Shown here: in pieces, positions 703-24,090 of the stretch
Position numbering within the stretch: position 1 is the stretch's first letter
How the letters are laid out: each line of letters starts with the position of its first letter
Origin: Xanthomonas sp.
GTDB taxonomy: Bacteria; Pseudomonadota; Gammaproteobacteria; Xanthomonadales; SZUA-5
Direction: 5' to 3'
DNA length: 32,577 nt
NCBI GenBank assembly: GCA_020693165.1
Contig: JAIMJQ010000030.1
Span: 1-32,577 of the forward strand
Program-made: the position numbers and the translations under genes
The notes under the pieces: model-generated
Told to the model about the DNA's origin: nothing
What the model saw: the letters and a program-made list of their open reading frames with translations, nothing else
Databases searched by the model: none

Positions 703-1593
703 CTACGCCAGCAGTCGTTCCCCACTCTGCCTTGCCCGCGCCTTGCGCACGCGTTGGCGCGGCGCGCTGTCGGCGACCTGCAGCATCGCCTTGAGCACAC
801 GCAGCAGTGCTTCGAGGTCGGCGCGGTTGTGTTGCATGACCCGCAACAGGTCGCGCGTGGCGCCGCTCGTGAGGAATTCGCGCCATGCCCTGGGTGCCTC
901 GCTGCCGGGAAGGTCGTTGGCGCGCTCGCGACCGACCAGCATGCGCTCGGCGGTGGTCAACCGGCAGTTCGGCCAGATGCCGCGAAATGCGCGGCGCACC
1001 GGATACAGCAGATCCCAGTGTCCGAGCTTGGATGCATTTGACTGGCGTCCGTGCAGGGTTTCCAGCGTGCGCATCGCCGGCACATCGAAGCGCTTGCCGT
1101 TGTAGCTGATCAGGTGCGCATCGCCAGCGCATTCGTCGACCCAGGCATCGACCAGCGCGCCCTCTCCCGCCGGGCTGGTCAGCAAATACTGGCGCAACAG
1201 CCAGGCTTGATCCTGCCAACGCAGCACCCCCAACAGAAACACCTTGAGACCGACACCACCGCACAGACCGCTGGTTTCGGTGTCGAACAGGCGCAGGCGC
1301 CCGATGCCGATCGTGGTGTCGGCGTCCCATGGCGGCGTCAGTTCGCCCGGAAGCTCAAGTCCGGCCAGTTTCAGCTTCAGCGCACTGACGCGTACCTCAT
1401 GCAGCCGCAGTCCGGGGGCAAGCTCCACGCCGGGCAGTTCGGGCGATGGCATCGATGCGCCGAACCCCTGGCGTTCACGCGCCAACAATCGCAGTCGGGC
1501 GAGGCGATCAGCCCAATCCGGATCGATTGGCGCGCGCACCTCAGCGGCCGCGCGACCACGCAATTGCCCCAGACGTGAACGCAGATCCAGCAT
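703..1593 (-). CDS. mrfB: YprB/MrfB-like RNase H-fold (DEDD-type) exonuclease
   Basis: Exonuclease-like motifs LFDTETSG, LISYNGKRFDVP and HNRADLEALL. It lies immediately downstream of a YprA-type helicase in the same orientation. Confidence 0.82.
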   Translation of the reverse strand: MLDLRSRLGQLRGRAAAEVRAPIDPDWADRLARLRLLARERQGFGASMPSPELPGVELAPGLRLHEVRVSALKLKLAGLELPGELTPPWDADTTIGIGRLRLFDTETSGLCGGVGLKVFLLGVLRWQDQAWLLRQYLLTSPAGEGALVDAWVDECAGDAHLISYNGKRFDVPAMRTLETLHGRQSNASKLGHWDLLYPVRRAFRGIWPNCRLTTAERMLVGRERANDLPGSEAPRAWREFLTSGATRDLLRVMQHNRADLEALLRVLKAMLQVADSAPRQRVRKARARQSGERLLA

Positions 1594-1605: not shown

Positions 1606-4077
1606 TCAATGCAGCCCGCTGCTGGTCGGCCAGTTGCTTTCGGCCAGCGCTGGCACCGGTCCGGCAGGCGCGCGCAGCAGCGCAAGCACCCTGAGTGCGC
1701 TGCCCTTCGGCGAGCGCTGCTCGTCGCTCGCCAGGATCGGACCAACACAGGCTGGACATCCAGAACCGCAGCGACATCCGGACACCAGTCCGATCGCAGC
1801 GCCGATCAGTTCGTCGCGACGCTCGAACAATGGCCGCGACAGGCCGATGCCGCCGGGATAGTTGTCGTACAGGTAAACTGCCGGCGCAAATTCGGCCATT
1901 GCGCCAGCATCGAGCACTTCACCCGATGGCCCGCGCATCTCGCCGCGGCCCTTGCCCGACACCTGCGCCGACCAGTCGTTGTCGCCACTGCCAACCGCCT
2001 TGCCGAGATCGCGCGGTTCGCACATCGACAACAGCGTGGCCACCGTATGCAGTGCGTACGCCGCACCGAGAAAGCCGTCGAGTGCTTCGAAGCGCGTCTT
2101 GAAGGCGCGATCGATGGCGTCGGGCGACAATCGCCACCACACCGAGGTGGTTTGCAGCTCCTGGTCCGGCAGGTTGACCGGTCCATAGCCGATGTTCTCG
2201 TGGCTGTAGTAGCGAATCTTCTTGTACCCGGTGACTCGTCGCACGACATGCACTTCACCGTGCTGGGCGGCGCCCTCGCCGGCATCGGCCTGCCCGAATT
2301 CGCTGAGTGGTTTCAGCCGCGTGTAGTCGATGGCGTCGGTGTAGTAGTCGACGTGGGTGCGGGTGACGTAGGCCTTGCGGCCTACCCAGTCGAGCTTTTC
2401 GACCTGCCATGGCACCGACTGCACCATGTAGATCGCGCCTTCGTACAAGGTCAGCGCGGCCGAGGAGTAATCGACTTCGGCAATGACGGTCTGCTTGCCA
2501 CCGGTGCGGTCGACGACCACGAAATTGCCGTCGGCTACCGAGCGCAGGTTGATCGCATTGGCGGGATAGCTGTCGTCGATCCAGTGCCAGCGACGACCGT
2601 CCCGATGCAACACCCCCTCCTCGGTCAGGTACTCGAGGAACTCGGCGATATCGCGCTCGCCGTAGCGGTCGGCCTCGGCGAACGGCAGTTCGAAGGCGGC
2701 GCAGCGGATGTGGTCGAGCAGGATCAGCAATTGGTCGGGATCGATCCGCGCGTGCTCCGGCGACTGCTCCAGGAAATAGGCCGGGTTGCGCACGACAAAC
2801 TGATCGAGTGCGTCGCTGCTGGCGACCATGACGCCGAGTGCGGACTGCTGGCGCCGCCCTGCCCGCCCGAGCCGCTGGCGGGTAGCGGCGATGCTGCCGG
2901 GGTAGCCGCACAGCAGGGCGACATCGAGCGAGCCGATATCGACACCGAGTTCCAGCGCCGAGGTGCTGACGATGGCGTCGATCGCACCCTGACGCATCAA
3001 CTTCTCGGTCAAGCGGCGCTCATCGGGCAGATAGCCGCCGCGATAGGCACGCACGCGCGCCGGCCTGCGCGGGTCGTGGTCGAACACGTCCTTCAGGTAT
3101 TTGGTCAGCACCTCGACCATCAGCCGCGATTGCGCGAACACGATCGCCTTGAGGCCGGCCTTCAGTGTCAGCCGCGCCAGCTTGCTGACCTGCGAACGCG
3201 CCGAGGCGCGGATCCCGAGATCGGGGTTGATCGGCGGCGGGTTCCAGAACAACAAGTGGCTGGCGCCGCGCGGTGCACCGCTTTCGGTGACCGCGCGCAT
3301 CGGCAGTCCGGTCAGTGCCTGCGCGTGCTCACGCGGGTTGCCGATGGTCGCCGAGCAGCAGACGTATTGCGGACGCACGCCGTAAAACGCGCAAATCCGC
3401 TGCAATCGTCGCAATACGTTGGCGACATGGGCGCCGAACACACCGCGATAGCTGTGCACCTCATCGATGACGATGAAACGCAGCGACTGGAAGAACTGCG
3501 CCCACTTGGTGTGATGCGGCAAGATTGCCTGGTGCAGCATGTCCGGATTGGTGACGACGATATCGCCCTTGGTGCGCACCGCCTGGCGCGCGTCCGAGGG
3601 CGTGTCGCCATCGAAGGTGTAGGCGCGCACACCGAGGTCGGCGGCGCGATTCAGCTCCATCAGTTCGGCGACCTGATCCTGCGCCAGCGCCTTGGTCGGA
3701 AACAGGTACAGCGCCTTGGCTTCGTGCTGCAGAACCGCGTCGAGCACGGGTCCGTTGAAACACAGCGTCTTGCCCGAAGCGGTGGGCGTCGCGATCACGC
3801 AATGCGCACCCTCGTGCAGCACGCGCCAGGCTTCGGCCTGGTGGCTGTACAACTCGCGGATCCCGCGGGATTTCAATGCGCTGCTCAAGCGCGGGTCGAT
3901 GTGATCGGGAAAGCGCTCGTAGCGACCACACTGCGCTGGCGCAACTGCCTCCGCCGTGATGCAGCCACGGTACTTGCGCTTGAGCCTGGCAACCAGCGCG
4001 GCAACCCGGTCCGGGGCCTGCGGTTCCGGCGCAATGAATCCCGACTCGACATCCGACACGACAGCGTTTAGGCTCAC
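1606..4077 (-). CDS. mrfA: YprA/MrfA-like DEAD/DEAH-box helicase with C-terminal DUF1998-type cysteine cluster
   Basis: Walker A ATPTASGKT, DEVH box (VIDEVHSYRG), motif VI QRLGRAGR, and C-terminal CRCGSGCPAC. GTG start at 4077 is assigned from the longest ORF. Confidence 0.9.
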   Translation of the reverse strand: MSLNAVVSDVESGFIAPEPQAPDRVAALVARLKRKYRGCITAEAVAPAQCGRYERFPDHIDPRLSSALKSRGIRELYSHQAEAWRVLHEGAHCVIATPTASGKTLCFNGPVLDAVLQHEAKALYLFPTKALAQDQVAELMELNRAADLGVRAYTFDGDTPSDARQAVRTKGDIVVTNPDMLHQAILPHHTKWAQFFQSLRFIVIDEVHSYRGVFGAHVANVLRRLQRICAFYGVRPQYVCCSATIGNPREHAQALTGLPMRAVTESGAPRGASHLLFWNPPPINPDLGIRASARSQVSKLARLTLKAGLKAIVFAQSRLMVEVLTKYLKDVFDHDPRRPARVRAYRGGYLPDERRLTEKLMRQGAIDAIVSTSALELGVDIGSLDVALLCGYPGSIAATRQRLGRAGRRQQSALGVMVASSDALDQFVVRNPAYFLEQSPEHARIDPDQLLILLDHIRCAAFELPFAEADRYGERDIAEFLEYLTEEGVLHRDGRRWHWIDDSYPANAINLRSVADGNFVVVDRTGGKQTVIAEVDYSSAALTLYEGAIYMVQSVPWQVEKLDWVGRKAYVTRTHVDYYTDAIDYTRLKPLSEFGQADAGEGAAQHGEVHVVRRVTGYKKIRYYSHENIGYGPVNLPDQELQTTSVWWRLSPDAIDRAFKTRFEALDGFLGAAYALHTVATLLSMCEPRDLGKAVGSGDNDWSAQVSGKGRGEMRGPSGEVLDAGAMAEFAPAVYLYDNYPGGIGLSRPLFERRDELIGAAIGLVSGCRCGSGCPACVGPILASDEQRSPKGSALRVLALLRAPAGPVPALAESNWPTSSGLH

Positions 4078-4082
4078 GGCTC

Positions 4083-4121
4083 GTTCTCTTTCTGTTCTCC
4101 CTGCCGCTCAGCGTAGAGAAC
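4083..4121. promoter_or_regulatory. Putative LexA operator: GTTC-N7-GTTC direct repeat (4083-4097) plus inverted GAGAAC (4116-4121)
   Basis: GTTCTC at 4083-4088 and 4094-4099, GAGAAC at 4116-4121; start spacings are 11 and 22 bp. Lies between divergent mrfA and lexA. Confidence 0.55.
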
Positions 4122-4123
4122 CA

Positions 4124-4753
4124 ATGGAAAACACGCAAGCGCTTTCTTTGACCGCCGGACAACGCCAATTGCATCAGCACCTGCGCGAGCGCCAATCGCT
4201 GGGCATGGCGCCGGCAACGCTGGACCAACTGTGTGCCGAACTGGGGCTGACGTCGCGCGGATCGCTGCACAAGCAGGTGCGTGCGCTGGTCGACGCCGGC
4301 CTGGTCGAACCCATGGACGGCAAGCAGCGCGGCGTGCGCCTGAGCGCGCCGGTTGCTGCAGAAGCCGACGAGGCCGATTCGCTGCCGCTATTGGGCAAAA
4401 TCGCCGCCGGGCGACCGATCGACGCGCTGGCCGGCAACGAGCGGATTCCCGTGCCGCCGCAACTGCGCCCGCGCGGCGAAGGCTACGCGCTCACCGTCAG
4501 CGGTGAATCGATGCGTGACGCCGGCATCCACGACGGCGACGTGGTAATCATCGAGGCGCGCGAACACGCGCGCTCCGGCGAGATCGTGGTCGCGCTGATC
4601 GACGGCGAAGCCGCCACTCTGAAGCGCCTGCGACCACGCAGTGGCTGGATCGAACTGGAGTCCGAGAACCCGGATCACCCGACCCAACGCTATGAGCCCG
4701 AGCGCGTGCGCATTCAGGGTGTCGTCGTCGGGCTGATGCGACGCTACGCGTAG
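4124..4753 (+). CDS. lexA: LexA repressor (S24 family)
   Basis: N-terminal wHTH, cleavage region LLGKIAAGRP (Ala-Gly), catalytic Ser in SGESMRDAGIHDGD and Lys in AATLKRL. Confidence 0.93.
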   Translation: MENTQALSLTAGQRQLHQHLRERQSLGMAPATLDQLCAELGLTSRGSLHKQVRALVDAGLVEPMDGKQRGVRLSAPVAAEADEADSLPLLGKIAAGRPIDALAGNERIPVPPQLRPRGEGYALTVSGESMRDAGIHDGDVVIIEAREHARSGEIVVALIDGEAATLKRLRPRSGWIELESENPDHPTQRYEPERVRIQGVVVGLMRRYA

Positions 4754-4989: not shown

Positions 4990-5328
4990 ATGCAGATTCA
5001 AGTCATCGATCAGCAACAAGCCGATCCGCAACGCCTGCGATCCATGTTCATCGTCCGCGCACTGCGCGCTCTCGATCGCCTCGCACCCGGCATTCTCAAA
5101 TTGGTCGGTCGCTTTCGCGATCTGAACGGTCCCAAGGGCGGAGTCGACCACGCCTGCACCATCGAAGTCGCCCTGCGCGACGGCACTCGCTTCCGCGCCG
5201 AGGCACGCGCCGAGCAGATTCTCACCGCGCTCGATGACGCCTTGGCACGACTGGTCAGACGCATCGACTCGGCGCGCAAGCGTCAGTTGGCGCGCCGCCA
5301 CACTGCGCTCGCATTCGAGGGCGGCTGA
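4990..5328 (+). CDS. HPF/RaiA-like ribosome-associated protein
   Basis: MQIQVIDQQQ...RFRDLNGPKGGVDHACTIEVALRDG...A...LVRRIDSARKR matches the S30AE-like pattern (D-x-NGPKGG-x-D). Confidence 0.65.
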   Translation: MQIQVIDQQQADPQRLRSMFIVRALRALDRLAPGILKLVGRFRDLNGPKGGVDHACTIEVALRDGTRFRAEARAEQILTALDDALARLVRRIDSARKRQLARRHTALAFEGG

Positions 5329-5336
5329 GGCCCACC

Positions 5337-5369
5337 GCTGGCGCGACCTGCACGCGCGGTCGCGCCAGC
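5337..5369 (+). terminator. Strong stem-loop after the HPF-like gene, possible terminator
   Basis: 12-bp perfect stem GCTGGCGCGACC (5337-5348) / GGTCGCGCCAGC (5358-5369) with a 9-nt loop, 9 nt after the stop. The T-rich tract (TTGTTTT) is only some 8 nt further on, so intrinsic termination is uncertain. Confidence 0.55.
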
Positions 5370-5468
5370 CGGCGCACTTGTTTTCGCAACCAACGGTCAG
5401 CCATCTCGCGGCTTCGTTTTCTTGACCGCAAATGAGTGTTCTTGCCGCGCACGGAGACCCATCCGCGA

Positions 5469-6128
5469 ATGTGCGGCCGCTACTTCCTCGACACACTTCC
5501 GGAACTGCTCGCCGAACAGTTCCGGGTGCACAAGTACCCGGTTTACCCGGTCAGCTACAACATCGCACCCACCCAACCCACGCTGATCCTGCGTCGCCAT
5601 GGCGACGACAACGAATGGGCCTGGGTGCGCTGGGGCCTGGTGCCGCACTGGGCCAAGGACCCCGGCATCGGCGCCAGGTTGATCAATGCGCGCGGTGAGA
5701 CGGTGGCCGAAAAGCCGGCATTTCGCGGCGCTTTCCGCTATCGACGGTGTGTTGTTCCAGCCAGCGGTTTCTACGAGTGGCGCGCCCAGGCAGGCGGCAA
5801 GCAAGCTTTCGCGATTGTTCCGACGGAAGCGAGGTGCTTCGGCTTTGCCGGGCTTTGGGAGCATTGGACCGCACCTGATGGCTCGGTGCTCGAGACCAGC
5901 TGCGTGGTGACCACCACGCCCAATCCGCTGATGGCAGCGATCCACGATCGCATGCCGGCAATTCTCGATCCGGACGACTACCAGAACTGGATGCAGGCTA
6001 CGCCAGCTGAAGCTACTGCGCTGATTCGCCCGTATCCAGTCCAACGCATGCGCACCTACGCCGTCGGCAAAGCGGTCGGCAATGTGCGCAACAATTCGTC
6101 GGATCTCGTCGCGCCGTTGGAGGGCTGA
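5469..6128 (+). CDS. SOS response-associated peptidase, SRAP (YedK/HMCES-like)
   Basis: N-terminal MCGRYF (catalytic Cys2), NIAPTQ, WGLVPHWAKD, NARGETVAEKPAFR, RRCVVPASGFYEW, MPAIL are all SRAP signatures. Confidence 0.95.
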   Translation: MCGRYFLDTLPELLAEQFRVHKYPVYPVSYNIAPTQPTLILRRHGDDNEWAWVRWGLVPHWAKDPGIGARLINARGETVAEKPAFRGAFRYRRCVVPASGFYEWRAQAGGKQAFAIVPTEARCFGFAGLWEHWTAPDGSVLETSCVVTTTPNPLMAAIHDRMPAILDPDDYQNWMQATPAEATALIRPYPVQRMRTYAVGKAVGNVRNNSSDLVAPLEG

Positions 6129-22179: not shown

Positions 22180-24090
22180 TCAGGTCTGCGCGGCAGGCGT
22201 CGCCGTCGGCGTCACCGGGGCCGTCGGCTTGCCCGGGTTGCTCGGCGCACCGCCATCGCCCTCGTGCCAGTCGGTCGGCGGCGGCACATCGCGATTGTTC
22301 ATGATCGCGTCGATCTGGATGGCATCGATGGTTTCGTACTTCATCAACGCGTCCGCCATCGTGTGCAGCTTGTCGGTGTTCTCGACCAGGATCGCCTTCG
22401 ACGTGGTGTAGCAGCGGTCGATCAATGCGCGCACTTCGGCGTCGATCAGCTCCGCGGTTTCCGGCGACACTGTCTTGGTCTGCGTGATCGAACGGCCGAG
22501 GAACAACTCCTCTTCCTCGTCGCCGTACATCAACGGGCCGAGCTGATCGGACATGCCCCACTTGGTGACCATGTTCCGCGCCAACTGGGTGGCACGCATG
22601 ATGTCGTTGGAGGCACCGGTGGTGACCTTGCCATGGCCGAAGATCAGTTCCTCGGCGAGACGGCCGCCGTACAGCGAGCAGATCTGGCTTTCCAGCCAGG
22701 TGCGGCTATGGCTGTAACGATCACCCTCGGGCAGGAACATGGTGACGCCGAGCGCTCGACCGCGCGGGATGATCGACACCTTGTACACCGGGTCGTGCTC
22801 GGGAACGACGCGGCCGATGATCGCGTGCCCGGCTTCGTGATACGCGGTCAGACGCTTCTCGTCCTCGCTCATCACCATCGAGCGGCGCTCGGCGCCCATC
22901 ATGATCTTGTCCTTGGCGCGCTCGAAATGGGTCATCGCCACGTCGCGCGAGTTGTCGCGCGCGGCGAACAGCGCCGCCTCGTTGACCAGGTTGGCGAGAT
23001 CGGCACCGGAGAAGCCCGGCGTGCCGCGCGCAATCACGGCCGGGCGAACATCGTCGCCCAGCGGAACCTTGCGCATGTGTACCTTGAGAATCTGCTCGCG
23101 ACCGCGCACGTCGGGCAAACCGACGACGACCTGGCGATCGAAGCGGCCTGGACGCAGCAGCGCCGGATCGAGCACGTCGGGGCGATTGGTGGCGGCGATG
23201 ACGATGGTGCCCTCGGTGCCCTCGAAACCATCCATCTCGACCAGCAACTGGTTCAGCGTCTGCTCGCGCTCGTCGTGACCACCGCCGAGTCCGGCGCCGC
23301 GATGACGGCCCACCGCGTCGATTTCGTCGATGAAGATGATGCACGGCGCGTGCTTCTTGGCCTGCTCGAACATGTCGCGCACGCGGCTGGCGCCAACGCC
23401 AACGAACATCTCGACGAAGTCGGAGCCAGAGATGATGAAGAACGGCACTTTGGCCTCGCCAGCAATGGCCTTGGCCAGCAACGTCTTGCCGGTACCCGGC
23501 GGACCCACCATCAGGACGCCACGCGGAATCTTGCCGCCGAGCTTCTGGAACTTGCCGGGGTCGCGCAGGAATTCGACCAGTTCGTGGACTTCTTCCTTGG
23601 CTTCGTCGACGCCGGCGACGTCGGCGAAAGTGACCTTGACCTGGTCCTCGCCCTGCAGGCGCGCGCGGCTCTTGCCGAAGGACATGGCGCCGCGGCCGCC
23701 ACCGCCACCTTGCATTTGGCGCATGACGAAAATCCAGAAACCGATCAGCAGCAGCACCGGCAGCAGGTTCAGGATCAGACCGAACAGCGAGAAGCCGGTT
23801 TCTGGCGCCGACTGCACCACCTTGACGTCATTGGCGATCAAGGTTTCAACCAGGCGCGGATCTTCGGGCACGTACAGTTCGAAGGACTTGCCGTCCTGCA
23901 GCTTGCCGGTCACCTTGCGGTCGGCTCCGATCCTGACCTCGAGCACCTGCTCGCGTTCGACTTTCTGCAAGAACTCCGAATAGGACAGGCCGGTGCTCAA
24001 GGCCGTGGTCGGCCCGAAGCTGCGGAAAACGCCCAGCAGAACCAGCGCGATCACCGTCCACAGCAGCAAGTTCTTCATCAAGTCGTTCAA
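22180..24090 (-). CDS. ftsH: ATP-dependent zinc metalloprotease FtsH
   Basis: [18 protein letters not shown] (TTG start, GGAG upstream at 24097-24100), [48 protein letters not shown]. Confidence 0.97.

Follow-up and report, generated by a model that had tools for sequence, protein, structure and literature searches.

A second LexA of alphaproteobacterial type and its putative four-half-site operator shared with mrfAB

In the window (the whole 32,577-nt stretch of Xanthomonas sp. DNA analysed here), the divergent genes mrfA and lexA2 share two GTTC-N7-GTTC-type boxes. Sequence comparison indicates that the second LexA of this genome, LexA2, very probably binds this operator and represses both lexA2 and mrfAB. 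On phylogenetic grounds, LexA2 is of alphaproteobacterial descent and no duplicate of the canonical LexA (LexA1). The locus comprises the following features.

703-1593, minus strand: mrfB, RNase_H_2, a DEDD-type exonuclease gene directly downstream of mrfA (PF13482; order same in relatives)
1606-4077, minus strand: mrfA, read divergently from lexA2; DEAD-box helicase carrying the MrfA Zn-binding domain (PF00270, PF00271, PF09369)
4046-4074, plus strand: candidate weak lexA2 promoter, TCGACA (4046-4051), 17 nt, TAGGCT (4069-4074), within the first codons of mrfA (spacing judged by eye in relatives)
4083-4132, no strand assigned: whole putative operator with four half-sites, arranged as two mutually inverted GTTC-N7-GTTC-type boxes (pattern search and relatives)
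4083-4099, plus strand: box 1, half-sites GTTCTC 4083-4088 and GTTCTC 4094-4099 (sequence; conserved in orthologues)
4110-4138, minus strand: candidate weak mrfA promoter, TTGCGT (4138-4133), a 17-nt spacer that is exactly box 2, TACGCT (4115-4110) (relatives; parallel in genome G126)
4116-4132, minus strand: box 2, inverted, half-sites GAGAAC 4116-4121 and GAAAAC 4127-4132 (sequence; spans the lexA2 start codon)
4124-4753, plus strand: lexA2, second LexA repressor, 209 aa, wHTH and S24 peptidase (TIGR00498, PF00717, PF01726, alignment)
4253-4279, plus strand: LexA2 recognition-helix codons, SRGSLHKQV, residues 44-52 (alignment to the LexA proteins of E. coli, Bacillus and Alphaproteobacteria)

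The putative operator and the proteins at the locus

Re-reading the sequence bore out the layout on which the original prediction of a LexA box was built: a 46-bp gap (4078-4123) between the mrfA GTG at 4077 (minus strand) and the lexA ATG at 4124 (plus strand), GTTC at 4083-4086 and 4094-4097 with N7 spacing, and an inverted GAGAAC at 4116-4121. These three half-sites are real, but a fourth had been missed. It is GAAAAC at 4127-4132, exactly 11 bp past GAGAAC and within lexA2 codons 2-3, and box 2 (GAGAAC-N5-GAAAAC, 4116-4132) overlaps lexA2 codons 1-3. The symmetry axis of the four half-sites falls at 4107.5. Near 4078-4132 there was no CTGT-N8-ACAG, even with one mismatch allowed.

The gene labelled lexA does encode a LexA, but it is the second of two in this genome and not the canonical one. 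LexA2 scored 137.6 bits on TIGR00498 (cut-off 110.95) and also matched PF01726 and PF00717. In an alignment with E. coli LexA, both the Ala-Gly cleavage site (IAAGRP, 93-98) and the catalytic motifs (Ser in SGESM, 126-130; Lys in ATLKR, 164-168) were intact. From the HTH serine on, LexA2 reads SRGSLHK, which is nearer to alphaproteobacterial SKSGIHR and Bacillus SSSTVHG than to the SPNAAEE/SANAAEE of E. coli LexA and LexA1. LexA1 itself, encoded on contig C98, scored 229 bits on TIGR00498; its gene has a CTGT-N8-ACAG box, CTGTATATTCATACAG (other strand CTGTATGAATATACAG), directly before the start and an ImuB-type polymerase gene downstream. From its position, we take the gene between these two to be imuA.

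In a whole-protein tree of 57 LexA sequences, the relatives of LexA2 formed one clade, sister to the alphaproteobacterial LexA clade (98/86) and separate from the canonical LexA of Gammaproteobacteria. Without the DNA-binding domain, the catalytic domain alone still placed LexA2 and alphaproteobacterial LexA in one group (100/98), although not as two tidy sister clades and with an uncertain branch order inside the group. Because the group persists without the DNA-binding domain, it is not an artefact of similar helices, and the description of the box as alphaproteobacterial-type holds literally. Separately, the LexA2 proteins of family f4 (L143, L145, L146, L147) are extended at the N-terminus by roughly 90-160 aa and have QLDLW or QMDLW at residue 23. 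The motif resembles a beta-clamp-binding peptide, and these LexA proteins might bind the replication clamp.

A standard consensus promoter scan found no strong promoter at the locus, and part of the conservation of the lexA2 promoter hexamers may reflect mrfA codons. In the mechanism that we propose, LexA2 would act through the shared operator both as its own repressor and as the repressor of the divergent mrfAB, with LexA2 dimers on each of the GTTC-N7-GTTC direct repeats. The lexA2 transcript probably starts in the region under box 1, where bound LexA2 would block lexA2 initiation; box 2 fills the likely mrfA −35/−10 spacer and covers the lexA2 start codon, where bound LexA2 would block mrfA. 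On DNA damage, RecA filaments would promote LexA2 self-cleavage and thereby the joint derepression of lexA2 and mrfAB. This switch would be separate from the LexA1/CTGT-N8-ACAG unit that leads the imuB-type polymerase gene.

Conservation of the boxes

The divergent mrfA/lexA2 arrangement occurs in 12 genomes from two families (f1 and f4). Half-sites were present at all 12 loci and at least one exact box at 11, with G031 having one mismatch per box. Across the loci compared, the step inside a box was invariably 11 bp, whereas the distance between boxes varied (total 47-51 bp in the pattern-search loci, longer in G063 and G051). A fixed step with a variable inter-box distance suggests two separately bound boxes without a rigid 22-bp phase. 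Of the earlier proposal that the hexamers lie 11 and 22 bp apart on one helical face, the 11-bp step thus stands and the 22-bp phase does not. Box 2 is an exact GAAC-N7-GAAC in G003, G008, G063 and G051; in most family members the fourth half-site is imperfect, with AAAC for GAAC. The opening codons of LexA2 (mostly MEN, in two cases MKN) persist in f4 despite the extension between them and the wHTH, which fits selection on the DNA because GAAAAC/GAGAAC overlaps these codons. The column of the mrfA start codon (GTG/ATG) is conserved in relatives as well.

Chance was ruled out as the origin of the operator by pattern counts against a reversed control and by the uniqueness of the longer motif. 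Plain GTTC-N7-GTTC matched three times in the window against 0.87 expected, and the other two matches, at 22490 and 25628, look like background. GTTCTN6GTTCT matched exactly once in the window's genome (~77% complete), in the mrfA/lexA2 gap. We searched 399 genomes of the order for the four-half-site pattern (GTTCN7GTTC-N16..24-GAACN7RAAC), with the reversed pattern as control, and found it in 17. Eight of these were family members, all eight in the data set with a lexA/mrfA locus, and the match always lay at the mrfA/lexA2 gap; a ninth had it at the distant lexA2-umuC promoter of G126. Matches at unrelated places came from 8 genomes, compared with 6 for the reversed control. One of them, in G128, adjoins pilin-like and adhesin-like reading frames and was taken as chance.

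The plain motif gave 96 matches across G000 against 63 in the control, a genome-wide count that is uninformative because the motif is too short. These matches include a repeated GTTCGAACCTTGTTC element. Copies of GTTCGAACCTTGTTC / GTTCGAACAAGGTTC lie on G000 contigs C2, C52, C65, C75, C81, C91, C117, C130 and C135, some of them paired about 85-90 bp apart; they probably form a family of interspersed repeats, which would raise the GTTC-N7-GTTC count of this genome.

More distant LexA2-type genes carry the same box. In G126 (f8), umuC follows lexA2, GTTCGCAAAATGTTC occupies the 16-bp spacer that separates TTGACT from TATAAT, and farther downstream lies an exact box in inverted orientation. In G027 and G118 (f10), the search for LexA matched a single protein, of LexA2 type; GTTCT repeats spaced 11-12 bp apart precede lexA and the SRAP gene there and, in G118 only, a Y-family polymerase gene as well. 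On the Methylobacter plasmid NZ_CP091426.1, umuDC is divergent from a LexA ~50% identical to LexA2, and GTTCTCTTTTTGTTCTA lies between them. The motif predicted upstream of orthologous lexA genes was therefore kept in families f1, f4, f8 and f10 and on this plasmid; LexA2 is absent from most genomes of the order, and their mrfA, where present, bears another motif. Among ~100 LexA loci, the SRG[SA][LV]H helix goes with exact GTTC-N7-GTTC and NAAEEH-type helices mostly with CTGT-N8-ACAG, and none of the canonical NAAEEH-type LexA loci had the exact direct repeat. Two further LexA2-type proteins have other repeats, also 11 bp apart: GTACTA-N5-GTACTA in G078 (L094/L155), whose helix is SRGSVRH (His to Arg), and ATTCTC-N5-ATTCTC on a Methylophaga plasmid (L235). 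Judging by these letters, helix and operator possibly co-vary.

Alternative readings and the GTCTCA palindrome

The hexamers GAGAAC/GTTCTC could be conserved because ribosomes bind them in the mrfA and lexA2 transcripts, and be no repressor site at all. The distance from GAGAAC to the start codon is indeed 2 nt for lexA2 and 5 nt for mrfA, and GAGA is weakly Shine-Dalgarno-like. However, this would not account for half-site 2, half-site 4 or the invariant 11-bp steps, the motif survives as AGAAC without GAG in G003, G008 and G057, and its copies in G126, G118, G027 and the Methylobacter plasmid are distant from start codons. On the strength of the AGAAC variants and the start-codon-distant copies we rejected this reading, which we consider extremely improbable.

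A regulator other than LexA2, for example LexA1 or an unrelated protein, might instead bind the operator. In the order, mrfA occurs in 66 of 200 genomes, mostly without lexA2, and seems normally to be regulated by some other factor: GTCTCA-N5-TGAGAC precedes all 22 of the examined mrfA genes that lack a lexA2 neighbour (L249-L270; ≤2 mismatches, most exact). Yet LexA1 is disfavoured by its own CTGT-N8-ACAG box and matching NAAEEH helix, and the GTTC box accompanies LexA2-type genes everywhere, even on a plasmid of another order, so that another regulator seems very unlikely. The differing letters of the G078 and Methylophaga plasmid repeats (GTACTA, ATTCTC) are a counterpoint to binding by LexA2.

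It is also conceivable that LexA2 binds but is no DNA-damage switch, and instead represses mrfAB constitutively or until some other trigger acts. The apparent size of its regulon would be in keeping with this. An alphaproteobacterial SOS regulon would be expected to have the box at recA and other SOS genes; in the window's family, GTTC boxes were absent from the upstream regions of recA, dinB and the SRAP gene, and the LexA2 regulon thus looks like one operator for lexA2 and mrfAB. The uniqueness of GTTCTN6GTTCT in the window's genome likewise makes the regulon look private, although at ~77% completeness more LexA2 sites are possible. A broad LexA2 regulon in this family found no support: GTTCTN6GTTCT matches away from lexA2 were at about the reversed-control level and recA, dinB and SRAP had no box. 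Against a repressor deaf to damage, the Ala-Gly cleavage site and the Ser/Lys motifs of LexA2 are intact, and boxes elsewhere stand at damage-response genes: lexA, SRAP (G027/G118), a Y-family polymerase (G118) and lexA2-umuC (G126). We therefore give this reading very little credence and prefer damage-responsive repression by LexA2, with the counterpoint that the regulon of LexA2, as an SOS-type repressor, would then be very small. The region downstream of lexA2 (window 4990-6128) contains a 112-aa gene resembling S30AE (PF02482, below cut-off) and a gene for an SRAP protein of the HMCES/YedK type (PF02586). SRAP is no conserved neighbour of lexA2, though it bears a box in f10.

In the mrfA/lexA2 intergenic regions, GTCTCA-N5-TGAGAC was found in none of 11. 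From this distribution and that of the GTTC boxes, mrfA stands under one of two operators, never both, at the loci examined. It seems that mrfA swapped operators between the GTCTCA palindrome and the GTTC boxes. Of 11 genomes in the LexA2-bearing set, 9 also have the palindrome before recA (≤2 mismatches; L164-L169, L171, L172, L174), and in f2 it precedes uvrA (L293, L295, L296) and a radical-SAM gene (L284, L294, L297, L298); exact copies occurred in 14 of 18 genomes, compared with zero for the reversed control. It looks like the mark of a LexA-independent DNA-repair regulon.

The palindrome further precedes a gene for a 115-aa XRE repressor at L287 (1535-2833, G000:C95) and L274 (1501-1888, G002:C8). 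At L287 the next gene encodes an ImmA/IrrE-type metalloprotease (PF06114), an arrangement that recalls DdrO/IrrE of Deinococcus. As general regulator of the palindrome this pair is unsupported, the protease occurring in 5 of 121 genomes; with such rarity it is probably a regulon member.

We tentatively picture a history that we hold at slightly less than an even chance, in which a mobile alphaproteobacterial-type LexA, often umuC/umuDC-linked, captured mrfAB in some Lysobacterales, and mrfAB left the GTCTCA regulon (recA, uvrA, mrfA) for a private single-operator SOS circuit. In G027 and G118, where the same LexA type is the sole LexA, its boxes would have spread to SRAP (and to the Y-family polymerase in G118), as the model in which a diverged LexA retakes the network predicts.

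Comparison with known LexA and MrfAB systems

Several features appear to be new: the presence in Lysobacterales of a LexA from the alphaproteobacterial lineage together with its own box, the association of this LexA with mrfAB, an operator of four half-sites lying over a start codon, and the GTCTCA exchange. Descriptions of none of these were found in the open-licence literature searched. The operator exchange at mrfA makes turnover of LexA motif and regulon directly testable, and GTCTCA-N5-TGAGAC suggests that Lysobacterales have a DNA-repair regulon which has apparently not been described.

MrfAB is the mitomycin-C repair pair of B. subtilis (PMC11194089). Here we find the same tandem (YprA/YprB) of a helicase with the MrfA Zn-binding domain and an RNase-H-like exonuclease gene, but divergent from lexA2. 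LexA control of mrfAB was not found in the literature searched, and our comparison would tie this little-studied pair to SOS-type control outside Bacillus. The lexA-umuDC and lexA-umuC cassettes (G126, Methylobacter plasmid) are similar in having a LexA2-type protein, the same box and what is predicted to be an autoregulated unit; in contrast, the partners here are mrfAB, with no translesion polymerase.

GTTC-N7-GTTC is the established LexA box of Alphaproteobacteria such as Caulobacter, Sinorhizobium and Rhodobacter (PMC9578287 Table 1, PMC8565304, PMC2248561 Table 5). CTGT-N8-ACAG is that of Gammaproteobacteria, with TTAGTA-TACTAA reported for Xanthomonadales (PMC2248561, PMC8565304, PMC9578287). 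LexA2 shares with its alphaproteobacterial counterparts the half-site, the spacing, the phylogenetic group and a similar helix (SKSGIHR), and the S. meliloti lexA upstream region, as read in this analysis, likewise has two GTTC-N7-GTTC-type repeats. Unlike them, LexA2 resides in a gammaproteobacterial host with a second, canonical LexA, and its four half-sites lie over a start codon, are common to mrfAB and apparently make up a one-operator regulon.

Duplications of lexA are often tied to motif divergence, and a diverged LexA may retake the network (PMC8565304). The LexA paralogues of Xanthomonas have been described as a recent duplication (PMC518961), in contrast to the alphaproteobacterial-type descent of LexA2. 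P. putida and X. axonopodis each have, in one cell, two LexA proteins with independent binding sequences (PMC9578287). The likeness to our locus is that of two LexA proteins in one gammaproteobacterium, which here would be a natural case of two LexA circuits that differ in ancestry and do not overlap in their DNA codes.
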